Of a stretch of DNA of 30,724 nucleotides, positions 9,059 to 30,724 are shown one piece after another. Numbering within the stretch: position 1 is the first letter of the stretch; each line of letters starts with the position of its first letter. The translations under genes were made by a program, and so were the position numbers. The DNA comes from a virus, in IMG/VR virus record IMGVR_UViG_3300036045_000255, positions 1-30,724 of that record; one strand, 5' to 3'. Under the pieces are notes generated by a model that was not told where the DNA came from, made no database searches, and saw only the letters and a list, made by a program, of their open reading frames with translations.

Positions 9059-10738
9059 ATGCAGCACAACTTACGGGAATTTCTCCGCCACGGCGGCAGC
9101 GGGCAGTACGTTTTCGTGCGGCAGAACGGGACCGTGTTCGGCTATCGCGCGGGCTTTTCTATCAAGTCGACTTTCCATGGCTACGCGGACCTGCGAGCCG
9201 ATTTCACCGACCGATTGGACCGCGTGATCGCCGACAACAGCCGGATGCTGTTGAACGCCTTGACGCCCCCGGACACCGTGCCGTGGGTGACCGAAGCCGA
9301 CCTGCGCGATGTTTCGGACGCGAAGGAAGAGGCGTTGCGCCAGTGGGACACTCGCCTGACGGCCATCTTCGAGGAATATGAGACCCACCCGCAGCGCCTT
9401 CGCCCCCTGCGAACCGCCATGGAAGAACGCTTGCTTCGGGCCTTCGCAGGGCTCGTCAACCAGCTTCGGCAGCAGGATTTGGGGATCGAGCGGTACATCT
9501 GGCGTTCCCAGGACGACGCGAAGGTCCGTGACAGCCATGCAGAGTACGACGATCAGGTGTTTCGCTGGGACGAGCCGCCCGCAGGCGGCCATCCGGGACA
9601 GGCGCACAACTGTCGGTGTTTCGCAGAGCCCATCGCGCCAGGATCGCGGAATGATGTGATACTGGCAGAACTTGCCCTTCCAGCCGAGGCTCCCGTGGAC
9701 GCCATCTTGCGTCGCCTTGGTCTCCGTGCCGTCGCGATCACACCGCTTGGAGCTGCCGCCCTGGCGGCTTTGGCCGCCAGCGATGCCCTGAAGGAATTCA
9801 CGCGTCTGGCCACCGAACGCCGCCTGCAACGTGCGGCCGAAATCCTTGGCGTCGATCCCGGATCGGCCGAAGGGCTCCTTGCGGCTATGGCTCACGAACT
9901 GGTGCAGGAAGCAGTCATCTCTGGTCTCGGGTCAAGTTTGCCGAAGTCGGTTGAGGCTGCACAGATCGCAGGGCAGGCGGCCGCGCTATACGAGATGTTG
10001 AACCCCGGCACCATCGTGCGTGTCATCGAAGGGGACAGGGCCGCACAACTCGCCCTGGGAGACTTCGTGCAGCGGGCATACAGCGCTTTTTCAGAAGGCC
10101 GATTGCGACTGCAGGACGGCACGATTGCCCAAGGCTGGGTCGAGGTTTTCCCCGAACTCACCGAGGGCGAGCGCCGGTTGGGTGAACTTCCCGGCTTCAC
10201 GCCGGAACGCATCGACCAGTGGCTGGAAACCTACCCGGCCGAGGTGCTTGGCCTGCCGAACCACACGGGTTCGCCCCCTGTCGAAGATCCTACCGGCAAC
10301 ATCATCTCCACGCCGATCCCGGATGAAGCGGGGCCGAACATTGTCGAGGTGCGACCCGGCGAGCCTACGCCGATCGGCCCCAACGATGACGACGCGACAC
10401 GGCGTGCCATTCAGCGCGAGAACGAGTCCGCGCAACTTCTCGCCGGAAGTGGCCTTGACGTTGTGCAGAACCCGGTAGTGTCGGGGCCGAAGAAACCCGA
10501 CTATCTGATCAATGGCGAGATTTATGATCATTATGCGCCATCGACGGATGTGCCTCGGAACATTTGGAGCGAAGTTCAAGGCAAGGTAGAGAGGGGGCAA
10601 ACGAACAACGTCGTCATCAGTCTTCGGGACAGCGATGTGCAGGAGGAGGCTTTGCGCAGGCAGTTTGAAGAATGGCCAATCGAAGGTCTGAGAGAAGTCA
10701 TCATCATTCGCCGGGACGGCACCATAGGGAGACTCTGA
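9059..10738 (+). CDS. MuF-domain polymorphic toxin with C-terminal CdiA-type tRNase domain
   Basis: This 559-aa protein is modular. Around residues 145-192 it has a Mu F / SPP1 gp7-like head-morphogenesis motif, RYIWRSQDDAKVRDSHAEYD, ending with GQAHNCRCF. A long helical middle follows, with a Pro/Gly-rich linker around residues 400-440. The last 112 residues, starting at about 448 (RRAIQRENESAQLLAGSGLD), match the CdiA C-terminal tRNase family: KKPDYLINGEIYDHYAP, NIWSEVQGKVERGQ, FEEWPIEGLREVIIIRRDG. Candidate PD-(D/E)xK-type catalytic residues are E454, D481, D490 and K509. A clear GGAGG lies 4 nt before ATG 9059. It is read against the flanking phage genes and overlaps a small downstream gene. 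Known MuF toxins are thought to be packaged in or released with phage particles; here the target (tRNA) and delivery are inference. Confidence 0.85.
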   Translation: MQHNLREFLRHGGSGQYVFVRQNGTVFGYRAGFSIKSTFHGYADLRADFTDRLDRVIADNSRMLLNALTPPDTVPWVTEADLRDVSDAKEEALRQWDTRLTAIFEEYETHPQRLRPLRTAMEERLLRAFAGLVNQLRQQDLGIERYIWRSQDDAKVRDSHAEYDDQVFRWDEPPAGGHPGQAHNCRCFAEPIAPGSRNDVILAELALPAEAPVDAILRRLGLRAVAITPLGAAALAALAASDALKEFTRLATERRLQRAAEILGVDPGSAEGLLAAMAHELVQEAVISGLGSSLPKSVEAAQIAGQAAALYEMLNPGTIVRVIEGDRAAQLALGDFVQRAYSAFSEGRLRLQDGTIAQGWVEVFPELTEGERRLGELPGFTPERIDQWLETYPAEVLGLPNHTGSPPVEDPTGNIISTPIPDEAGPNIVEVRPGEPTPIGPNDDDATRRAIQRENESAQLLAGSGLDVVQNPVVSGPKKPDYLINGEIYDHYAPSTDVPRNIWSEVQGKVERGQTNNVVISLRDSDVQEEALRRQFEEWPIEGLREVIIIRRDGTIGRL

Positions 10739-11046
10739 TGGCGATATTCTACACCGCCTATTCCGACTTAGACCTGCCTGACCTCACGCAGCGACTAAAC
10801 GCAGCAGCTAGGAGTGCCGGAGACGTCTGGGAAGCTTGGAGTGCAAGTGATGACCTGGGGCCGTTCCATTTGGAAATCATGGCCGAATATGGTGTTCAAG
10901 ACAGCTTCAAGAGCGAGTGTTTCACACGACACTCGAAAGACCATACCGTGCAGGCCCGACAGGCAATGCTTGCCTTCTTCGAGTCCTTGCCAGGACGAAA
11001 GCTGCTTCTGAACGGCGACGTGTTTGTCGCGTTCCGTCCCGCTTGA
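10738..11046 (+). CDS. Probable immunity protein for the MuF-CdiA toxin
   Basis: This 102-aa protein (MAIFYTAYSDLDLPDLTQRL ... RKLLLNGDVFVAFRPA) starts at ATG 10738-10740, overlapping the toxin stop as TGATG, with GGGAG about 6 nt upstream. It is small, mildly acidic in its first half, and has no signal peptide or membrane segment, so it should be cytoplasmic. Its job as antitoxin is inferred from the strict position after a CdiA-type nuclease domain. I do not recognise a specific immunity family with certainty. Base composition by eye is less GC-rich than the phage genes on either side, as often seen for toxin-immunity cargo. A frame open upstream to 10672 is only the out-of-frame toxin end. 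Confidence 0.75.
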   Translation: MAIFYTAYSDLDLPDLTQRLNAAARSAGDVWEAWSASDDLGPFHLEIMAEYGVQDSFKSECFTRHSKDHTVQARQAMLAFFESLPGRKLLLNGDVFVAFRPA

Positions 11047-19120: not shown

Positions 19121-19236
19121 GGTGCGGATAATCCGATCAAGCTGATGATATCTCTTGGTATTCAATTGATTAGAGGGCGACACAGAGCGAGTCTGATCGC
19201 AAGGAAACGATGCAACTCAGCGAAGGACGCCCCGCC

Positions 19237-19464
19237 ATGACCACCCGCCGCGCCACCTCGAACGACAAGGCCCTCGACGCATTCGTCGCCGCCAAGGCAG
19301 AGATCGACACGATGCTGGAGCGCCTGAAGGCCCTCAGCGACGACCATTTCGAATTCGATCCGGACGCCATCAACTGGGGCGCCGTCGGATCGCTCAACAG
19401 CGTTGCCGCCGATCTGCGCAAGATCACCGACTTCCTCTTTGGCGAGGGTGAACACGCCTCCTGA
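19237..19464 (+). CDS. Small prophage protein, unknown function (75 aa)
   Basis: The protein reads MTTRRATSNDKALDAFVAAK, then AEIDTMLERLKALSDDHFEF, DPDAINWGAVGSLNSVAADL and ends in a helix before FLFGEGEHAS. It is acidic and mostly helical, with no signal or membrane segment. Small proteins of this pattern are familiar near terminase genes of Rhodobacteraceae prophages, but I know no function. Two starts are possible: ATG 19237, with GAAGGA upstream, or ATG 19210 (nine more codons), with AAGGA 4 nt before it. It is divergent from the terminase operon. Confidence 0.7.
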   Translation: MTTRRATSNDKALDAFVAAKAEIDTMLERLKALSDDHFEFDPDAINWGAVGSLNSVAADLRKITDFLFGEGEHAS

Positions 19465-19559: not shown

Positions 19560-20117
19560 ATGACCACCCCGTCCGACACCCAATCCCTGATCCTGTCTCG
19601 CGCTGCCACCCGGCCCGGCAACCTCGCCCTGCCGCTGCCCGAGGGGCTGGTCGGCGCCGCCGCCAAGATGGTGGTCGGCAAGATGATCGCCCGCGGCTGG
19701 CTGGAGGAGGTCGAGGCAAACCTGCGTCAAGGCGAACCGATGTGGCGCGAGACCGGCGATGGCCACGGCACCACGCTGATCGCCACCGCGGCCGGGCTGG
19801 AGGCCATCGGCATCGAGCCGGTGGTGGCCAGCGCTGTCGCCAGCGCGCGGAAGGCGAAGTCGAGGCCGCAGGCGGAAAAGACGCACGACGACACCGCGAA
19901 ACCTGTCGCCATCCGCGCTGGCACCAAGCAGGCCCAGATCATCGCCATGCTCCAGCGGCCCGAGGGCGCGACGGTCGCCGAGATGGTCGAGGCCTCCGGA
20001 TGGCTGGCCCATACCGTCCGCGGCTGCATCTCGGGGGCGCTGAAGAAGAAGCTGGGTCTGCCCATCACCGCCGAGAAGGTTGACGGCAGGGGGACGGTGT
20101 ATCGGGTCGCGGTATGA
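19560..20117 (+). CDS. DUF3489 domain protein (185 aa), putative DNA-binding
   Basis: The C-terminal half contains AIRAGTKQAQIIAMLQRPEG, ATVAEMVEASGWLAHTVRGC and ISGALKKKLGLPITAEKV, the DUF3489 pattern, which looks like a winged-helix DNA-binding fold. The N-terminal half (LILSRAATRPGNLALPLPEG and a WLEEVEAN region) resembles a second helix-turn-helix-like part. Such genes are common beside prophage packaging genes in alphaproteobacteria, and a regulatory role is inferred, not known. ATG 19560 has GGAGG 5 nt upstream. It ends 35 bp from the convergent repeat-protein gene. Confidence 0.8.
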   Translation: MTTPSDTQSLILSRAATRPGNLALPLPEGLVGAAAKMVVGKMIARGWLEEVEANLRQGEPMWRETGDGHGTTLIATAAGLEAIGIEPVVASAVASARKAKSRPQAEKTHDDTAKPVAIRAGTKQAQIIAMLQRPEGATVAEMVEASGWLAHTVRGCISGALKKKLGLPITAEKVDGRGTVYRVAV

Positions 20118-20152
20118 CAGCCTTGAGTAGCGAATCCTACATCTTTAAGTTG

Positions 20153-21010
20153 CTACGCGTCTTCGGTTCCGGCACCCAGCGCTTTGAGCAGCTGCTGGTG
20201 GCGATCATAAGCATCACGTGAACTGTGCGTGTAGGTGGTTATCGAAAAGCCGCTGCCCGTATTTTCAGAGACTTTCTCTTGGACTCGACCGTCTGCCAAG
20301 AAATCAACCTTGCGGCCACCATGGCTTTCGATTTCATGCTTTTCCGCGAAAGCATCCAAGAGGTCCCAAATTGGGTTGCGTGTCTGTGGCTTTGATCGTT
20401 TCTGGCGGCCCTTTGATGGTTGAATTGGCAATACGCCAGAATCATCCCACCCGTCAGAGTTCGTCGAGCTGCTTTCCGAATTGTCACCGACGGAAGCATC
20501 AGAACGATGCCTGTCCGACACGCCGTTATCCCCGCCGTTCTCCTTGTAGGCCCGGACCCTGTTAGCTTCTTGGTTGATTCGTTGCCTGTAGGCATAGTCG
20601 TCTTCAAACCAGCCTTGGCGCGCACTCTGGCCGTTATTTGCCAGGTACTGCTCGTTCGCTTCCTGCCGCATCCTAGTGTTGAAGGAGTCGTCCCCTTCGA
20701 ACCAGCCTTGCCTCGGTGTTTCGCCCGAAATTCGCGAAACTGAACTCACATTCGCTTCGTGCTCTATCCGCGAACGATAGTCGTCGTTTGACTCGAACCA
20801 GCCCTGACTAGGTGCAGATCCAGTATTGCTCTCAATTGTGCGCTCATTCGCTTCATCGGCAATACGGCTTGCGTAGGCGTCGTCGCTCTCGAACCAGCCT
20901 TGCTTAGGCGCAGAGCCAGTGGAGTCCGCAATTATGCGTTCGTTGCTCTCTCTTTCGATTCGATCTCGATAATCAGAGTCCGACTCGAACCAGCCTTGAC
21001 CAGATCCCAT
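20153..21010 (-). CDS. Repeat protein with five QGWFE units, unknown function (285 aa)
   Basis: Translation from ATG 21010 (GGAG 7 nt upstream) starts MGSGQGWFESDSDYRDRIER. Five tandem units of about 32 residues begin at residues 5, 37, 69, 101 and 132, each with QGWFE, an acidic/aromatic D-x-D/A-Y step, an R-I/M motif, EAN (ESN in unit 1) and a TGSAP-like spacer. A Ser/Asp-rich linker follows (about 160-200), then a compact C-terminal domain of about 75 residues with NPIWDLLDAFAEKHEIESHG and SITTYTHSSRDAYDRHQQLL. There is no signal peptide or membrane segment. GC is visibly lower than in the phage genes. I have seen QGWFES-type repeats in uncharacterised bacterial proteins but know no function. 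It may be horizontally acquired cargo of the prophage. Confidence 0.75.
   Translation of the reverse strand: MGSGQGWFESDSDYRDRIERESNERIIADSTGSAPKQGWFESDDAYASRIADEANERTIESNTGSAPSQGWFESNDDYRSRIEHEANVSSVSRISGETPRQGWFEGDDSFNTRMRQEANEQYLANNGQSARQGWFEDDYAYRQRINQEANRVRAYKENGGDNGVSDRHRSDASVGDNSESSSTNSDGWDDSGVLPIQPSKGRQKRSKPQTRNPIWDLLDAFAEKHEIESHGGRKVDFLADGRVQEKVSENTGSGFSITTYTHSSRDAYDRHQQLLKALGAGTEDA
20531..20998 (-). repeat. Five tandem ~96-bp coding repeats (QGWFE units)
   Basis: Three units are exactly 32 codons, the fourth 31, and the fifth degenerates after EAN-RVRAY. At DNA level the plus strand repeatedly shows a conserved TCGAACCAGCC block at the QGWFES start of units 1-4 (unit 5 has a variant). 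Units 1 and 2 are most alike and 4 and 5 most diverged, consistent with stepwise duplication. Confidence 0.85.
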
Positions 21011-21038
21011 GTTGCCGCTCCATGGCCGCTCTAGGGAA

Positions 21039-21067
21039 AGTATAGCCGAAGATTGACCCCTCGTCAC
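21039..21067 (-). promoter_or_regulatory. Possible sigma70-type promoter for the repeat-protein gene
   Basis: On the minus strand GTGACG (21067-21062), a 17-nt spacer and TATACT (21044-21039) are followed by a roughly 22-nt leader with GGAG and ATG 21010. The -10 is good and the -35 partial. The 135-bp gap (21011-21145) otherwise shows no gene; an open frame extending into it is unlikely coding. Confidence 0.4.
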
Positions 21068-21145
21068 CATCGGTGGCCAAGCGTCTCCCCTCCTTCCAAG
21101 AACGCACATGAGCGCACGAGCGACGTAAGCACGCTCCTTTTGCAC

Positions 21146-24148: not shown

Positions 24149-26239
24149 TCAGTTGCCCTTGAGGAAGTCGTCGACGAACTCCGACACGGGAGTTACGCCG
24201 GTGACCAGCAGGTGATCCCTCGCCCTTGTGCAGGCAACATAGAGCAGGTGCCGTTCCGTGTTGTAGACTTCCTCGAGGTCCGCGTCGTCAGCCACTGACT
24301 CGATCCGCTCTGATTGCGGGATCACCTCGTCGTCGCAGGCCATGACCACCACCGACCGGAACTCCAGCCCCTTCGCGAAGTGCATTGTACTGATGGCGAC
24401 TGCCCCGTCCTCCACTTCGACCTTTTCACTCAATTCGACCGCGCGAACGCCCGCAGCTTTCGCGGCAGCACGCGCACGTTTCAGTTCCGCGTCAGACCTG
24501 ACGAAAATACCAACCTCGCGCGGTGCGCAGCCCTGCTTCAGTCGATCACTGATCCATCCTGCAACCGCGCGGCATTCGTGATCCTCGTCGCTGCAGGCCA
24601 TGACCATGGGCGGAGGACCGTCGAACATCGACACCGTGCCGCGCCGACCTTCGGTATTGCCGTCCACATCCGAAACGGTTGACGGCAGGAGCCGATCGGC
24701 GTGGGTGCGGATCTGATGTGACGTGCGGTAGTTGATGCGCAGCGTGAAAGATCGGCCACGGACATCAAGGCCCAGCGCCCTCCAGGAAAACGGCTGCTGA
24801 AAGATGCGCTGGCCGAGATCACCGGCGAAGAAGATGCCATCGCTGCGCCCTGCAGCCAAGGCAGCGAAGAACCTCGCCTCAGCCACTCCTAGGTCCTGCG
24901 CCTCGTCGACCACCGCAAAATCGTAGGGCCGAGTGCTGCCTTGGGTGAAACCATCCGCCAGACGCCCGAAGACGTCCGACCACGTCACAGCGCCACGTTC
25001 CCGTAGCCCCGCGCGGACGCGTTCAAAGATGGCCCAGAGGGTCTCGCGCTGCTTGCCTCCGATCCGGGTCTTCCGCCCAAGGCGCGACACGTCGCGATAA
25101 TCCTCCCACGACCGAAGCTGCCAGGCGTCCACGACGTCGTTCCATTCTCCGATCAGGAACTGGAGCGAAAACCGGTGCCCTTCCACCTCGGCCGCCGCCT
25201 TTTCGATCAGAGACCGGACCAGCGCGCCTGGGGCGATCTGGGGTTGTCCGAAACGATCGGAGTGAAGGTCATACCCTAAGGCCGAGACCGCCTTGACGAT
25301 GATCCGCGCCGAAACTGTGGGCTCGTTGCCCACGAGGCTGGCCAACTTGGCTCGCAGGGCATTCGCCAGTGGCTTCGAGAACGTTGTAAGCAAGACCTTG
25401 GCAGAAGGATTGGCGCGGGCAAGATGGACCGCTCGATGCAGCGCCACGATGGTCTTTCCCGTCCCGGCCGAACCCGAAACCCGGGTCGGGCCGGAGAACG
25501 ACCGCTCGACAAGATCGGCCTGGGCCGGATGCAGGAACACCGCCCACTTGTCCCAGGGATAGTCCAGCGCCTGCTTCAGCTCCTCGGCATTGGTCAGAAC
25601 GCGGAAGCGGCGCTGGGCGTCGGGGTGGGCAAAGGGATCGGCCTCGACAGGAACAGGCTCGGGCGGTTGCGGTTTCTCGCCCACCGCCAGTTTCAGCAGA
25701 GCTTCCTGCGCCTCTTGCGGCAAGTGTTCGATGATGTCGAACAGGGTGTCCTCGGTTGCTGCCCGAACGTCGTTCACCCATTCCTCGGGCACGCCAAAGG
25801 CCATCAGTTCGAACTTGCGCAGATTGTCGAACAGGCGGGCCGCGGGCTTTGTGGCAGGCGCGGGTGTAGCGGCCACCTCTTTGGGCTTGAAGATTTCCAC
25901 CTCTTCAACCCGCTCGCGCACCTCGACCATCTGCATGGCGCCCGTCGTCGGGTGGCGTTCGATCTTCCGCCTTTCGGCCCATTTGTAGGCGTCGTCGTGG
26001 TGATCGACATAGACCAGAAGGATGCTGGCGGTCGTGCGGTGAACGATGATCCGGATGTCGGCATTTACTTGCAACGACCAGAAGTTTGCGTCCTTGGCGC
26101 GGTCCAGCTTGTGGAAGGATAGGCCGTTTGAAGTCGGGTCCAGTTGCAGGTCGAACGCGGTGGTCTTGGCCGCCTTCTGCTCCTGCGCGGTCAGGCGGCC
26201 GAGACTGTCGGTGAAAGTGTCGGCGATCCGGAACTCCAT
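24149..26239 (-). CDS. UvrD/Rep-like superfamily 1 helicase with RelE-like N-terminal domain
   Basis: This protein of about 696 aa has a RelE/ParE-toxin-like N-terminal domain (residues about 1-90: ITDSF-like entry, FHKLDRAKDANFWSLQVNAD, IRIIVHRTTASILLVYVDHH, DDAYKWAERRKIERHP). The SF1 helicase follows: Walker A GSAGTGKTIVALHRA at about 260, Walker B FAVVDEAQDLG at about 440, GDLGQRIFQQPFSW (motif III), RSFTLRINYRTS (IV), STMHFAKGLEFRSVVVMACD (V) and ERHLLYVACTRARDHLLV (VI). All motifs are intact, so it should be an active 3'-5' DNA translocase. The start is ATG 26239, directly overlapping the GIY-YIG gene stop; GTG 26242 is possible. It is the last gene of the defence operon. The RelE-like part may be a nuclease or merely structural; this is not known. 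Confidence 0.85.
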   Translation of the reverse strand: MEFRIADTFTDSLGRLTAQEQKAAKTTAFDLQLDPTSNGLSFHKLDRAKDANFWSLQVNADIRIIVHRTTASILLVYVDHHDDAYKWAERRKIERHPTTGAMQMVEVRERVEEVEIFKPKEVAATPAPATKPAARLFDNLRKFELMAFGVPEEWVNDVRAATEDTLFDIIEHLPQEAQEALLKLAVGEKPQPPEPVPVEADPFAHPDAQRRFRVLTNAEELKQALDYPWDKWAVFLHPAQADLVERSFSGPTRVSGSAGTGKTIVALHRAVHLARANPSAKVLLTTFSKPLANALRAKLASLVGNEPTVSARIIVKAVSALGYDLHSDRFGQPQIAPGALVRSLIEKAAAEVEGHRFSLQFLIGEWNDVVDAWQLRSWEDYRDVSRLGRKTRIGGKQRETLWAIFERVRAGLRERGAVTWSDVFGRLADGFTQGSTRPYDFAVVDEAQDLGVAEARFFAALAAGRSDGIFFAGDLGQRIFQQPFSWRALGLDVRGRSFTLRINYRTSHQIRTHADRLLPSTVSDVDGNTEGRRGTVSMFDGPPPMVMACSDEDHECRAVAGWISDRLKQGCAPREVGIFVRSDAELKRARAAAKAAGVRAVELSEKVEVEDGAVAISTMHFAKGLEFRSVVVMACDDEVIPQSERIESVADDADLEEVYNTERHLLYVACTRARDHLLVTGVTPVSEFVDDFLKGN

Positions 26240-26808
26240 CACTGTTCCCCTGCCTCCGCTTCGTCTTCCTCAGCGGGCACGCTGTCCCAGATGTCTTTGA
26301 TCATATCAATCTGAGAGGGATACACATTTTCGAGGTCCCGATACTGTGAGAATTTCTGGGCCGCCCCAAAATTTGGACCTCTCCGGTTAAGTGGTGGCTC
26401 GGCACTAACTATTATTATTCCTTCTAGTGAGTTGAGTACCTCATTGAGTTCAAGCCCATTGGCGTTGACTTGATCCTGCAAGATATACCCGTCTCCCTCG
26501 TGCAGAATTCCTTTTAGGCCAAACCATGAGAACTTTGTCCACCTCTCAGAGAGATGATCGTTTGTGTGGCTTCGCAGCCTTCCGAATAGAGTTGCGTTTC
26601 CGAAGCCAGCCTGTCCGGTATAAAGCAGCCTGAAGTTATCGTCATACAGGCAGTATATTCCGACTTGATCGCGAAAGTTGACTTGTTGCTGTCGCCTTTC
26701 AACCACGTGGCTGCCGATTAAGTGTCCTCGTGGGTTTCCTCGCCGACCGCCAGGATTCCAGTGAACCGCCTCGCGCTTCCAGAATAACCCATAGTTCTTG
26801 ATCATCAC
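26239..26808 (-). CDS. GIY-YIG nuclease-domain protein (189 aa)
   Basis: Residues 50-65 give VGIYCLYDDNFRLLYTG, a GIY-YIG signature with YTG in place of YIG. Arginines follow in LFGRLRSH (77, 79), and the C-terminal family pattern LEGIIIVSAEPPLNRRG provides the conserved glutamate (129) and asparagine (141). These are the residues GIY-YIG nucleases use for DNA cleavage, so activity is plausible. The N-terminal 45 residues (WKREAVHWNPGGRRGNPRG) are basic and may bind DNA. ATG 26808 overlaps the Mod stop as ATGA, and its own stop overlaps the helicase start. GC is distinctly lower than in the flanking genes, with many A/T-ending codons, pointing to separate acquisition. It may be a second nuclease of the restriction system (inference). 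Confidence 0.82.
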   Translation of the reverse strand: MMIKNYGLFWKREAVHWNPGGRRGNPRGHLIGSHVVERRQQQVNFRDQVGIYCLYDDNFRLLYTGQAGFGNATLFGRLRSHTNDHLSERWTKFSWFGLKGILHEGDGYILQDQVNANGLELNEVLNSLEGIIIVSAEPPLNRRGPNFGAAQKFSQYRDLENVYPSQIDMIKDIWDSVPAEEDEAEAGEQ

Positions 26809-29717
26809 TCCACCGCAAACACCTTCATCACCTCATCGCCAAGGTGGTTGATCACCTTCACCGCGATCCGCCCGGACTTCGGCTTCGCGAACGGGCGCGA
26901 GGTGTCGGAATAGAGGCTCTCCCAGGCCTCCTCGTCGATCTCGGCCTTCAGCGTGGTCTTCAGCGCCTTGTAGGGGTCGTTGGCGCCGAGGAAATAGGCG
27001 TGGCGGACGAAGAACGACTCCTCGTTGTAGTCGGTGTCGAGCATCCACAGGGCGATGCCGTCCGTCCCCTCGCTCTGCACTTCGCCGGTCTGGGGCTTGA
27101 ACACGTCCACGCCGAAGACCTGCACTTGCACCATGCCATCCCCCGCATCGGTGATCCGGATATCCGGTTCGCCGAAGATCACGAACAGGTTGCCCGCGCC
27201 GGTGGATTTCAGGTCGCCGCCCATGTGCAGGTCGGGGTTCATCCGGGCCTTCAGGATGCGGATGCGGCCCAGCTTGTCGAACTCGCTGCTATGGGCGTCA
27301 TAGTTGAAGGCGCAGGCGATCAGCACGTCGAAACCGGCGGCGCCTGCCTCGCGCGCCGCCGCCACCAGATCGGGGCGGGACACCGTGCCGAACTCGGGGC
27401 CGATGAACACGCCCGCGCGGCGCTGGGTGTCGCCTTCCATGAAGGTGCCCTCGGCGGCGATCCAGTTGCCGGGCCAACCCTTGAGGCTGGAAAAGGTGAT
27501 CCGGTCCTCCTTATGCGCCTGCTGCACGCCTGCGGCTTTCAGGTTTTCCAGGATCATATGGGCGAAGTCGGTGAAGTCGCGCGGGGCCTCGGCGGCCTTG
27601 CGCTTGCCCTCGGCGGCATCAAAGGTGTCGATCAGCTCGTCATCCCAATCGACGGCAAGGGTGCGGTGGGGCGACAGGCTTTCCACGGTGAAGGGGCCTG
27701 CGACGCGGACCTTGGAGGCGTCGGCAAAGGGCTTGTCGTAGAGGTATTCGAACTCGGCCTTCGCCGCGATGCTGGCGTCGATTTCGCGCTGGCGGGCGAT
27801 GCGCGCCTCCCAGAACCGGCTTAGCGCGGCTTGCGCGGGGGCGGGCCAGCCGGAGGGGGCCTCGCGCGGGATTTCCCATTCCATCAACCCGTTCGCCGGG
27901 GCCATTTCGCCGGAGGGGAGCTTGACCTGCCCGCTCGCGGTGAAGTCGATCCTGGCGCCCGCGCGGCCGCCGGTTTCCACCTTGAAGGGGGTGGGGTGGA
28001 GGGCCAAGGCGGCGTTCAGGGCGGCGATGGCGTCCTCGACGGCGGGCTGGAGCCGCTCCCAGATCACGTCGATTTCGGCGTTGTTGGCGATGGATTTCAG
28101 CGTGATGTGCGGCACGCGGTCATAGACGAAGCCCAGGCGGATGCTGCCGTGGGTGGGGGTGGATTTGGGGACCGATCGCGTGACCTCGGCCTCTTTCGCC
28201 TGCCCCTCGGCACTGTCGGCCAGCAGGTAATAGGGATAGCGCGCGCCCATCAGGCGGGAGCGGGCGAGCGCGATGGCGACGCGGCTGGTGTCGATGGTGA
28301 TCCAGCGCCGCCCCCATTGTTCGGCGACATAGGCCGTGGTGCCCGAGCCGCAGGTGGGATCGAGCACCAGATCGCCGGGGTCGGTGGTCATCAGGATGCA
28401 GCGGGCAATCGCACCATCCGAAGTCTCGACAACATACTGTTTGTCACTTCGAATAACTACATCTTCCCAAATGTTATTCGCTTCATAGCCGGGGTAGTCT
28501 TCAAGAAACCGCCGATACCTGATGCTCTTGCCTGTGTTGCCGACCCTGCCTCCCTTGACGAGACGTTCCAACCCCGGTTTGTTTGTCTTCCAGCTTCTGC
28601 CCGCGTTCGATGAGAATACTAGCCCTTCGAAGGGCTGCGGAAATGTGCAGGTCGGGGTAAATCCCGACGAAACCAGATCGCCATACTGGAATGTGCGGAC
28701 ACTGGCGGGAATCGTCTCTGGCACGTCCTTTTCGGTCCGAGTGAGCGGGCGATATAAACCAGTGTCAACCTCATAAGCGGTATCGTATCTTGCGCCTGTG
28801 GTCGCACCCTCGCCCTGCTTTTTCACAAGCAAAGGTTTCCTAAATTTATACTTTTCTCTGTCCTTTGCAAACCAAACAATAAAGTCGGCCACAGACTTCA
28901 AGCTATTTGAGCCGAGTCCGCCTGTGGTCTTGAGTGTGATCAAGGAACAGAAATTCTCATCCCCAAACACCTCATCCATCAGCGCCCGCACGCGGTGCAC
29001 GTTCTCGTCGCCGATCTGCACGAAGATGCTGCCGCTCTCGCTCAGCAGGTCGCGCGCCACGGTCAGCCGGTCGCGCAGGTAGGTCAGGTAGGAATGGATG
29101 CCGTCCTTCCAGGTGTCGCGAAAGGCGCGGACCTGTTCGGGTTCGCGCGTCACATGGGTCTTGTCGCCATCCTTGACATCGCGGCTGGTGGTGGACCACT
29201 GGAAGTTGGAGTTGAACTTGATGCCATAGGGCGGGTCGAAATAGATGCACTGCACCTGACCGCGCAGCCCTTCCCGCTCGGCGAGGGATGCCATCACCGA
29301 CAGGCTGTCGCCGGAAATCATCCGGTTCGACCAGTGCTGGTCGTGCTGGTAGAACTCGGTCGCAGCCTCGGCATCGGGCAGGCCGTTGAAATCGGCGAAC
29401 ATGTCGAATTGCGGCGCGTCCTTGGCGGCCTTGGCCCGGTTGGCCGATTCGCGTTTCAGGTCGTCGATGATGACCTTGGGGTGGACCTTTTCCTGGATGT
29501 ACAGCGGCGGGGCCTGAACGATCAGGTCGGACCAGTCCTGCTCATCCTTGCCGCGCCAGACCAGTTGCGGGTCCAGATCGCGGTTGCGGCGTTCGTAGGC
29601 CAGCTGGATGGGCGTCTTGTCCTGATCGCGCATCAGGCTTTCAAACTCCGCCGTCGGAATGTTCTTGCGCGTGGCGTCGTGGGTGAGGGTTTCGACCTCG
29701 ATGGGTTTCTTGGCCAT
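26805..29717 (-). CDS. Type III-like Mod DNA methyltransferase (970 aa)
   Basis: This beta-class N6-adenine methyltransferase resembles type III Mod but is large. The N-terminus has DKTPIQLAYERRNRDLDPQL and QEKVHPKVIIDDLKRESANR. The catalytic motif is IYFDPPYGIKFNSNFQW at about residue 160, followed by FGDENFCSLI. A variable target-recognition part covers about residues 250-432, then LDPTCGSGTTAYVAEQWGRR (SAM binding) at about 450. A long C-terminal region (550-970) with VEVFK-like and FGVDVFKPQTGEVQSEG segments is typical of the enlarged Mod partner of BPTD_3080-type endonucleases. ATG 29717 is 3 bp after the upstream stop. The recognition region (about 28420-28960) has a much lower GC than the rest. 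It modifies host DNA and probably guides the restriction subunit. Confidence 0.9.
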   Translation of the reverse strand: MAKKPIEVETLTHDATRKNIPTAEFESLMRDQDKTPIQLAYERRNRDLDPQLVWRGKDEQDWSDLIVQAPPLYIQEKVHPKVIIDDLKRESANRAKAAKDAPQFDMFADFNGLPDAEAATEFYQHDQHWSNRMISGDSLSVMASLAEREGLRGQVQCIYFDPPYGIKFNSNFQWSTTSRDVKDGDKTHVTREPEQVRAFRDTWKDGIHSYLTYLRDRLTVARDLLSESGSIFVQIGDENVHRVRALMDEVFGDENFCSLITLKTTGGLGSNSLKSVADFIVWFAKDREKYKFRKPLLVKKQGEGATTGARYDTAYEVDTGLYRPLTRTEKDVPETIPASVRTFQYGDLVSSGFTPTCTFPQPFEGLVFSSNAGRSWKTNKPGLERLVKGGRVGNTGKSIRYRRFLEDYPGYEANNIWEDVVIRSDKQYVVETSDGAIARCILMTTDPGDLVLDPTCGSGTTAYVAEQWGRRWITIDTSRVAIALARSRLMGARYPYYLLADSAEGQAKEAEVTRSVPKSTPTHGSIRLGFVYDRVPHITLKSIANNAEIDVIWERLQPAVEDAIAALNAALALHPTPFKVETGGRAGARIDFTASGQVKLPSGEMAPANGLMEWEIPREAPSGWPAPAQAALSRFWEARIARQREIDASIAAKAEFEYLYDKPFADASKVRVAGPFTVESLSPHRTLAVDWDDELIDTFDAAEGKRKAAEAPRDFTDFAHMILENLKAAGVQQAHKEDRITFSSLKGWPGNWIAAEGTFMEGDTQRRAGVFIGPEFGTVSRPDLVAAAREAGAAGFDVLIACAFNYDAHSSEFDKLGRIRILKARMNPDLHMGGDLKSTGAGNLFVIFGEPDIRITDAGDGMVQVQVFGVDVFKPQTGEVQSEGTDGIALWMLDTDYNEESFFVRHAYFLGANDPYKALKTTLKAEIDEEAWESLYSDTSRPFAKPKSGRIAVKVINHLGDEVMKVFAVE

Positions 29718-29720
29718 GGG

Positions 29721-30140
29721 TCAGCCTCTTCTTCTTTGGACAGTTACTGAAAAGCCGGTCGCGCGGTCGATCTGAAGCCAGGGGGTCAGCAGTGCTTCGC
29801 CTTTATCCGTCAGGTGAAACATGCCGTCGTCCATGCGAACGCACCCAGCATGGTCGAGAGCCTGCATGACGGAGCGATCCGGGTGGATGAAGCCGTCGTC
29901 CAGTGGAATGCCGGTCAGTGGTATCGGTCCATTTGCGATCTGGAGATATGCCAAGAGGTAGGCCGAGCAGCGGGGGCTGCGCCAATCGATGACGCGGTCG
30001 CTTTCGTACCACCATGCTTTGCGAGCGGCCTCGCTTCGCGGTGCGGGCTCCAGCCGCTTGTTGGACGATGCTTCCGAAACACTCGGGTCGAAGAAGGAAG
30101 ACCAATTATTGAGGATCTCGCGGGCGTCATGGAAGTTCAT
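29721..30140 (-). CDS. Small protein between Res and Mod, unknown function (139 aa)
   Basis: The sequence begins MNFHDAREILNNWSSFFDPS and contains RKAWWYESDRVIDWRSPRCS, AYLLAYLQIANGPIPLTGIP and a C-terminal winged-helix-like stretch: VMQALDHAGCVRMDDGMFHL, TDKGEALLTPWLQIDRATGF. The latter pattern suggests a small DNA-binding wing (inference). ATG 30140 overlaps the endonuclease stop as ATGA and the stop is 3 bp before Mod, so it is coupled to both. I do not recognise a named family. It could be an adaptor or regulator of the restriction complex. Confidence 0.75.
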   Translation of the reverse strand: MNFHDAREILNNWSSFFDPSVSEASSNKRLEPAPRSEAARKAWWYESDRVIDWRSPRCSAYLLAYLQIANGPIPLTGIPLDDGFIHPDRSVMQALDHAGCVRMDDGMFHLTDKGEALLTPWLQIDRATGFSVTVQRRRG

Positions 30141-30724
30141 TCGATCAGGTCTCCCTGACGCGCGGGGCCGGCTACGAGTGTTTCAAGCAGTTTGTCGAAC
30201 TCATCCTCCATCTGGTAGACCGCGGTGAACTCGGCAAATTCCCAGCGCCCGAACTTGCCGAGGTTGTTCACGCCCGGCACCCAGTAGGCGCGCATGGTGT
30301 TCGCCTTGTCCTTGGCGTCCTCGCCGCGGAAGCCCTTGACCTCGACGATGAGGTTCAGGGGGTCGGAGTGGCCGTCGTCGATGCGGACGATGAAGTCGGG
30401 CATATACTTGCGCGGGGTGGAGCCGGACAGGTAGGGCACCTCGAGCCCCAGTCCCTGGTTCTTGACGTAGGACAGGACGCGCGGGTGGCCTTCGGCGACG
30501 CGGGCGAACTCCGCCTCCCAGTCGCTGTCGCAGACCACCCAGTTGACGTGGGATTTGTCGGGACGGGTCTGCCAGCGCAGCGCCTTGGAGGTGGTGAAGT
30601 TGACGAAGGCGGTGGTGCCGGTGGGGTTGTAGGGGTCGAGGATCGCCTTGATCTGGTTCTCGCCCTTGAGCGTTTCGGTGATGGCCGCCTTGATCCGCTC
30701 GGCCGCCATGTCGGCGATTTCGCG
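30137..30724 (-). CDS. Type III-like restriction endonuclease subunit, C-terminal part (partial)
   Basis: The frame is open to the right edge (RE-IAD before MAAERIKAAITETLKGENQI), so only the last about 195 residues are visible; the helicase part lies outside. The visible portion has a PD-(D/E)xK nuclease core: KYMPDFIVRIDDGHSDPLNL followed by IVEVKGFRGEDAKDKANTM, with Asp of PDF and Glu-x-Lys of EVK as catalytic residues. The ending WVPGVNNLGKFGRWEFAEFT is typical of BPTD_3080-type enzymes. It is the first visible gene of the five-gene operon. ATG 30709 is internal, not a start. Confidence 0.87.
   Translation of the reverse strand, partial: REIADMAAERIKAAITETLKGENQIKAILDPYNPTGTTAFVNFTTSKALRWQTRPDKSHVNWVVCDSDWEAEFARVAEGHPRVLSYVKNQGLGLEVPYLSGSTPRKYMPDFIVRIDDGHSDPLNLIVEVKGFRGEDAKDKANTMRAYWVPGVNNLGKFGRWEFAEFTAVYQMEDEFDKLLETLVAGPARQGDLIE

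Follow-up and report, generated by a model that had tools for sequence, protein, structure and literature searches.

The five-repeat gene

The window, by which we mean the whole stretch of viral DNA analysed (30,724 nucleotides, positions 1 to 30,724 of IMG/VR record IMGVR_UViG_3300036045_000255), carries on its minus strand a gene (20153..21010, with the ATG at 21010 and the stop codon ending at 20153) that encodes a protein of 285 residues with five tandem units, each of which opens with the motif QGWFE. On the same strand, units 1, 2 and 3 (20903..20998, QGWFESDSDYRDRIERESNERIIADSTGSAPK; 20807..20902; 20711..20806) have 32 residues each, unit 4 (20618..20710) has 31, and unit 5 (20522..20617), the last third of which has diverged, again has 32, so that all five occurrences of QGWFE begin at residues 5, 37, 69, 101 and 132. 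Two or more copies of GWFE appeared in none of 20,000 shuffled versions of the protein, and over their first 26 positions the units share 38-58% of their residues pairwise. The first-pass annotation had described five 32-residue units with invariant QGWFE and EAN-like motifs, of which the number of units and the QGWFE hold as stated, while unit 4 is one residue shorter and the EAN of units 2-5 reads ESN in unit 1. The array, with a net charge of -13, is followed, as had likewise been described, by an acidic linker rich in Ser, Asp and Asn (approximately residues 164-200; 20411..20521, minus strand) and a small C-terminal region (approximately residues 201-285; 20153..20410, minus strand).

The same residue is often encoded by different codons in different units, and no tandem repeat was detected at the DNA level in 20153-21010, which together argue for an old protein repeat and not for a recent DNA duplication. 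The GC content of the gene is 54% (GC3 58%) as compared to 65-69% (GC3 82-86%) for four neighbouring phage genes, and the scan for promoter sites found two promoter-like sites where 0.4 would be expected, including the sigma-70-like GTGACG-17-TATACT (21039..21067, minus strand), with a GGAG resembling a ribosome-binding site 7 nt before the ATG (21018..21021, minus strand); the lower-GC DNA and the likely promoter of its own claimed earlier for this gene are thus both borne out. A match to a characterised family, which would have spoken against the first-pass annotation, did not emerge: the window protein matched no curated family above the cut-off in Pfam, PHROGs (lowest E 0.054), NCBIfam (lowest E 2.6) or PADLOC, and no PDB sequence.

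The prophage slot and its contents

The gene occupies a variable slot of 1028 bp and 54% GC (20118..21145), which runs from the end of a minus-strand DNA methylase gene (PF01555; 21146..22477), up to 96% identical in relatives, to the end of a convergent, plus-strand gene for a DUF3489 protein (PF11994 by family match; 19560..20117), which is kept in relatives. The earlier placement between methylases and terminase is correct, with the qualification that the DUF3489 gene and a small ORF at 19210-19464, both on the opposite strand (+), also intervene before the gene for the terminase small subunit. The terminase of the window shares 62% identity with its counterparts in Rhodobacter capsulatus phages, and the 7.1 kb around the slot match plasmids of Roseicitreum antarcticum and Paracoccus aminovorans with 80-82% identity over 74-78%, and both observations point to a prophage of Rhodobacterales type.

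Related loci were collected by a search with the neighbouring methylase, which returned at least 598 relatives in IMG/VR, and the counts that follow refer to the best 80 of these. The order methylase, methylase, slot, DUF3489, small ORF, terminase small subunit and terminase large subunit is found in most of these 80, and both flanks of the slot in 79 of them, the remaining locus (L085) having no DUF3489 match. The five-repeat protein occurs in none of the 80 related loci, and the DNA of the window slot gave no blastn match in any of them. Two of the 79 slots with both flanks are shorter than 200 bp; among the other 77, the GC content of the slot is below that of its locus in 70 (mean 0.575 versus 0.640), and 64 hold an ORF of at least 70 residues, these falling into 37 clusters when the longest ORF of each slot is taken, some of which are likely not genes. 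The 13 slots that have no ORF of 70 residues include eight of nearly constant length (L044, L048, L056, L063, L086 and L088 with 215 bp, L071 and L076 with 218 bp), apparently the empty state of the slot, which makes them useful for defining the insertion point. The Roseicitreum slot holds one unrelated hypothetical gene.

For the annotation of the cargo, 38 representatives were used (the 37 clusters, with the longer ORF for L029 and L043, and the Roseicitreum slot gene), among which Pfam recognised nine families with one member each, including NYN, Abi_C, HNH_3, RusA, NOV_C and DUF4145, and PADLOC three, again with one member each (AbiJ, homing endonuclease and TmtA). With three PADLOC families represented once each among 38, and with most of the cargo having no named function, the designation "defence slot" would be weakly founded. 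What the related loci do have in common are conserved flanks with replaceable contents, as in a prophage accessory-gene hotspot: these prophages possess a slot for cargo, in most cases about as large as a single gene, that adjoins a place used by restriction-modification systems, and the five-repeat gene is almost certainly one of its cargo genes. The context survey proposed in the first-pass annotation therefore upholds its reading as prophage cargo, given that the same slot of Rhodobacterales-type prophages holds other genes in relatives (37 ORF clusters among the best 80 of at least 598).

Prophage hotspots with antiviral genes are known from P2/P4-like and other phages, according to Rousset et al. 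2022 (PMC9122126). The present slot resembles the P2/P4-like hotspots in being a fixed site in related prophages with interchangeable accessory genes; it differs from them in the phages concerned, in its site between methylase and DUF3489 genes beside the terminase genes, and in that few of its members have a recognised defence domain. Literature searches for DUF3489 together with prophage gave no paper, and those for hypervariable prophage cargo in alphaproteobacteria gave, as judged from the listings, nothing on this slot.

Several slot ORFs without a recognised family, in L025, L043, L045, L054, L058 and L084, have, by eye, strongly hydrophobic stretches, which resemble the tails of two homologues of the repeat protein described below; they are perhaps membrane proteins. 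The gap that separates the small opposite-strand ORF from the gene for the terminase small subunit also varies in length among the best 80 of at least 598 relatives (L016-L095), so that a second cargo slot may exist next to the terminase genes. Beyond the methylases, the window carries a type III restriction-modification system on the minus strand (24149-30724), which comprises a Mod gene (26805-29717; 1260 bits to the PADLOC family MTase_III) and, close to where the record ends, the C-terminal part of Res (30137-30709), together with a gene for a UvrD-type helicase (24149-26242) and an ORF of 189 residues (26239-26808, minus strand). In the Roseicitreum plasmid pRA03 (L100), a type ISP restriction-modification system is found a short distance past the methylases, in a place like that of the type III system of the window, so that the region may represent a second site at which defence genes vary.

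Homologues and predicted fold of the array

A scan of a genome collection (84,980 species) with a degenerate pattern returned three contigs, namely two real homologues and one chance match (L011; L002-L010 and L099 were likewise set aside as chance pattern matches). The homologues are a protein of 271 residues from a contig assigned by binning to Methanoregula (archaea; L012) and one of 337 residues in a Gemmataceae assembly (L013), with arrays 54% and 48% identical to that of the window protein. Both have exactly five units with a spacing of 32. The count of units across homologues suggested earlier thus gave five in each, and a repeat absent from all homologues, which would have refuted the first-pass reading, is not what is seen. 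Over the 15 units of the three proteins, G2, E5, R13 and E17 are the same throughout, Y10 and A18 are kept in 14, and Q1, W3, F4 and D7 each vary in two. Units in the same place are more alike between proteins than units in different places (0.506 versus 0.466; p=0.009 over 20,000 permutations), which indicates that the five-unit array was inherited as a whole and that, as judged from the sequences, a single ancestor with five units is the most likely origin of the three proteins. The protein distance is dN 0.32-0.47, with silent sites saturated. After the array, both homologues continue into hydrophobic segments whose length would suffice to cross a membrane, and the window protein has none. 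It has to be noted that the rule of five units rests on the three family members known.

Searches for further members yielded none within the scope covered. With tblastn, neither the window protein (at 1e-5) nor the Methanoregula protein (at E 1) matched phages (50,697 records) or plasmids, and pattern and profile scans of IMG/VR, which may leave out the window record itself, found no further member. Profile searches of genome samples from outside the alphaproteobacteria, in sets that overlap, added nothing to the known members in the phylum sample of Gemmataceae (0/391), in that of Methanoregula (0/391), in family genomes (0/94) or in two orders (0/231 and 0/101), and a profile search of related records was equally negative (0/31, namely 29 of the 80 from IMG/VR and two plasmids). 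As the sampled genomes gave back just the two known members, the family appears to be rare and scattered, as would be the case for a horizontally moved gene, and horizontal transfer is our best reading of its distribution. The C-terminal region alone gave phage matches at E 5 and plasmid matches at E 0.1-9, which were taken as chance; among the candidates rejected were two Sinorhizobium regions (L096 and L097), presumably LysR-like reading frames, and a Rhizobium match to a frame of nine residues. A profile of the three arrays gave one row against PDB sequences (E 1.3), also attributed to chance. In the literature, the string QGWFE led to retrovirus papers, judged by title, and no paper was found for GWFES together with tandem repeat.

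Structure prediction, another of the analyses suggested earlier, gave one helix per unit. The AlphaFold model of the window protein has five helices (residues 11-31, 43-63, 75-95, 107-125 and 138-158) connected by loops of 11-12 residues, with a pLDDT of about 60-84 in the array and mostly below 50 in the tail; the linker is at about 31-34, and the C-terminal region, modelled as helix-strands-helix with a pLDDT mostly below 55, belongs to no family. The model of the Methanoregula array has a pLDDT of 76.8 and a pTM of 0.67, the two models being built on alignments of the same three proteins and hence not independent. With VIA-align, the best solved match of the window model is PDB 8FJE (Z 7.5, rmsd 3.9, 129 aligned), which is also the best for the Methanoregula array (Z 11.0, rmsd 3.1, 127 of 136 residues aligned, with Z 4.9 for the match that follows). 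Foldseek places 8FJE first for the Methanoregula model, with a probability of 0.98 and a TM of 0.60 by target, but an E of 0.41, and for the window model 8FJE is absent among the best 50 matches listed. The 8FJE match spans nearly the whole array, yet its Z lies under the level trusted for helical repeats, for which values below about 13 can reflect a common arrangement. A viral structure library gave no match at E 0.001. Arm-binding domains of P4 integrase, which came first in Foldseek for the window model, and PC4/Sub1/Pur-alpha-like rows for the C-terminal region (Z 2.9-3.4, rmsd 6-8) were set aside, as the model parts concerned have a pLDDT mostly below 55.

An alternative to a closed array is an open helical solenoid, or an array of beads on a string, in which each unit would bind a single partner molecule or, where the partner is linear, a single turn of it. 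The near-identical units of the window protein with their spacing of 32, the loops of 11-12 residues between the modelled helices, and the divergence of the last third of unit 5, as might be seen in an end cap, are consistent with such an arrangement. Against it stand the presence of five units in all three proteins, with the identity of the units kept by place, whereas open repeat arrays commonly vary in copy number, and a best structural match that is a closed bundle; a fixed count with place-specific units would be predicted for a closed ring more than for an open solenoid, and we regard the solenoid as possible, if rather doubtful. Closure of the five helices into a ring, which rests on the models, is evenly balanced in our judgement. 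Five repeats are present in all three proteins as counted by units, each predicted to be helical, which is what a closed pseudo-C5 protein would have. In a simple helical wheel (100 degrees), R13 and E17 share a face with Y10, I14 and A18, and these residues may pair between helices or line a pocket.

The match 8FJE is the design E8, which PMC10643118 presents as a closed pseudo-C5 helical bundle of five repeats. The array would resemble E8 in its five repeats, all predicted to be helical, and in the pseudo-C5 match, and differs from it in being natural and in having a single-helix unit of 32 residues with a QGWFE turn, whereas the E8 unit is a helix-turn-helix; sequence identity between the two is 9-13%. 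As judged from the listings, the literature searched has nothing on a pseudo-fivefold helical ring fold like this one. Repeat proteins and cargo genes in prophage hotspots are known as kinds, and it is this repeat family, its predicted closed five-helix form and this slot that are absent from the libraries and literature searched, with too few members for strong claims. The binding surface that the first-pass annotation had suggested from the repeated W/F/D/Y pattern has indirect support at most: the residues that never vary are G, E, R and E, with Y and A and then Q, W, F and D nearly invariant, and what the models match best is a ring that is closed around a central pocket, as opposed to an open surface.

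Proposed function and alternatives

In the explanation that we favour, tentatively and at somewhat less than even likelihood for the whole of it, the gene would be a self-promoted, single-gene cargo (a moron) in the replaceable slot of a Rhodobacterales-type prophage. Each 32-residue unit would form a Q-G-W-F-E-S-D turn followed by one helix of approximately 21 residues, and the five helices would lie next to one another in a closed, pseudo five-fold symmetric ring, in which the invariant G, W/F, E, R, Y and E would hold the helices together around a central pocket or channel. This ring would be an inherited module on exchangeable C-terminal parts, namely membrane-spanning segments in the two homologues, and a flexible acidic linker with a small soluble domain in the window protein. 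Soluble or tethered to the membrane, the ring may bind a ligand or partner in the cytoplasm, with the attached membrane segment or soluble domain giving the output. As prophage cargo, the protein would have the host cell or competing phages as its target, possibly in superinfection defence. A constant array with three different tails points to a module with exchangeable output, and a ring joined to exchangeable C-terminal parts would most likely be a receptor or docking ring; that the array is such a receptor or docking module is a reading we put forward with reserve, as just short of an even chance. A host- or competitor-directed role is our best reading from the slot context.

A narrower alternative is that the ring acts as a sensor of infecting phages, with the tail, or in the homologues a membrane segment, harming the cell or blocking entry. 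Slot mates such as the Abi_C/AbiJ, HNH, NYN and NOV_C proteins, restriction-modification systems just beyond the methylases in the window and in one relative, and the methylase fragment near the Methanoregula homologue would fit with superinfection defence of this kind, as would the defence genes of known prophage hotspots (PMC9122126). The Methanoregula homologue is also accompanied by genes of metallophosphatase and AAA_23/SMC-like type, a pair that was read as Mre11/Rad50. It has to be weighed against this that none of the three proteins has a match in PADLOC-DB 2.0.0 at E 0.01, that most of the slot cargo has no defence signature, and that no defence island was found among the genes scanned around the Gemmataceae homologue; superinfection defence by such a sensor is in our view a fairly unlikely option, and an antiviral role in general is given the same low standing.

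Less probable by far is a counter-defence role, in which the acidic repeat would mimic DNA and occupy a host nuclease. The net charge of the window array and the acidic linker would suit such a protein, but the Methanoregula array has a net charge of 0, two homologues have membrane segments, and the invariant R would be left unexplained. That the repeat is a relative of the RNase-like toxin domain Ntox43 (PF15537) is highly improbable. This domain is the best Pfam match of the window protein (20.6 bits) and the Methanoregula protein (23.8 bits), but both scores lie under the curated cut-off of 25 bits, and the Gemmataceae protein has no match. The best stretch (window residues 25-50, profile positions about 15-42 of 127) is the repeat itself, such that the two are alike over about 26 residues at a sub-cut-off score, with the rest of the domain uncovered. 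Two conserved histidines are ascribed to Ntox43 in PMC3482391, and these are missing in the repeat, which has no histidine among its conserved unit positions and one in the whole window array. A phage structural or packaging protein, for which the position beside the terminase genes alone speaks, is just as improbable given its absence from all 80 methylase-keeping loci (the best 80 of at least 598), from the 50,697 phage records and from the IMG/VR scans, its low GC, and the other genes that occupy the same slot in relatives.

Returning to the closed ring with exchangeable outputs, a wider extension, which we consider unlikely though worth stating, is that closed five-helix pseudocyclic rings form a natural family without a name so far, whose members are cytoplasmic receptor modules with interchangeable outputs (a membrane pore or anchor, or a soluble effector) and have spread between archaea, planctomycetes and Rhodobacterales prophages, serving in the latter as a single-gene defence sensor; they would be nature's equivalent of the designed pseudo-C5 proteins with ligand pockets. 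If the explanation favoured here is right, a fold whose best match to date is a computer-designed protein would have a natural example, in a 32-residue, one-helix, five-unit form simple enough to crystallise, and the slot of the Rhodobacterales-type prophages would offer dozens of unrelated single genes that could be screened together for antiviral or host-directed activity.

Elsewhere in the window, a gene at 9059-10738 (plus strand) encodes a phage Mu F-like head protein (PF04233) with a C-terminal CdiA_C toxin domain (PF18451, 5e-20), and is overlapped by an ORF of 124 residues at 10672-11046 (plus strand), which belongs to no family and lies in a GC dip (53%). The two look like a MuF polymorphic toxin and its immunity gene, and are encoded on the strand opposite to most of the structural genes.
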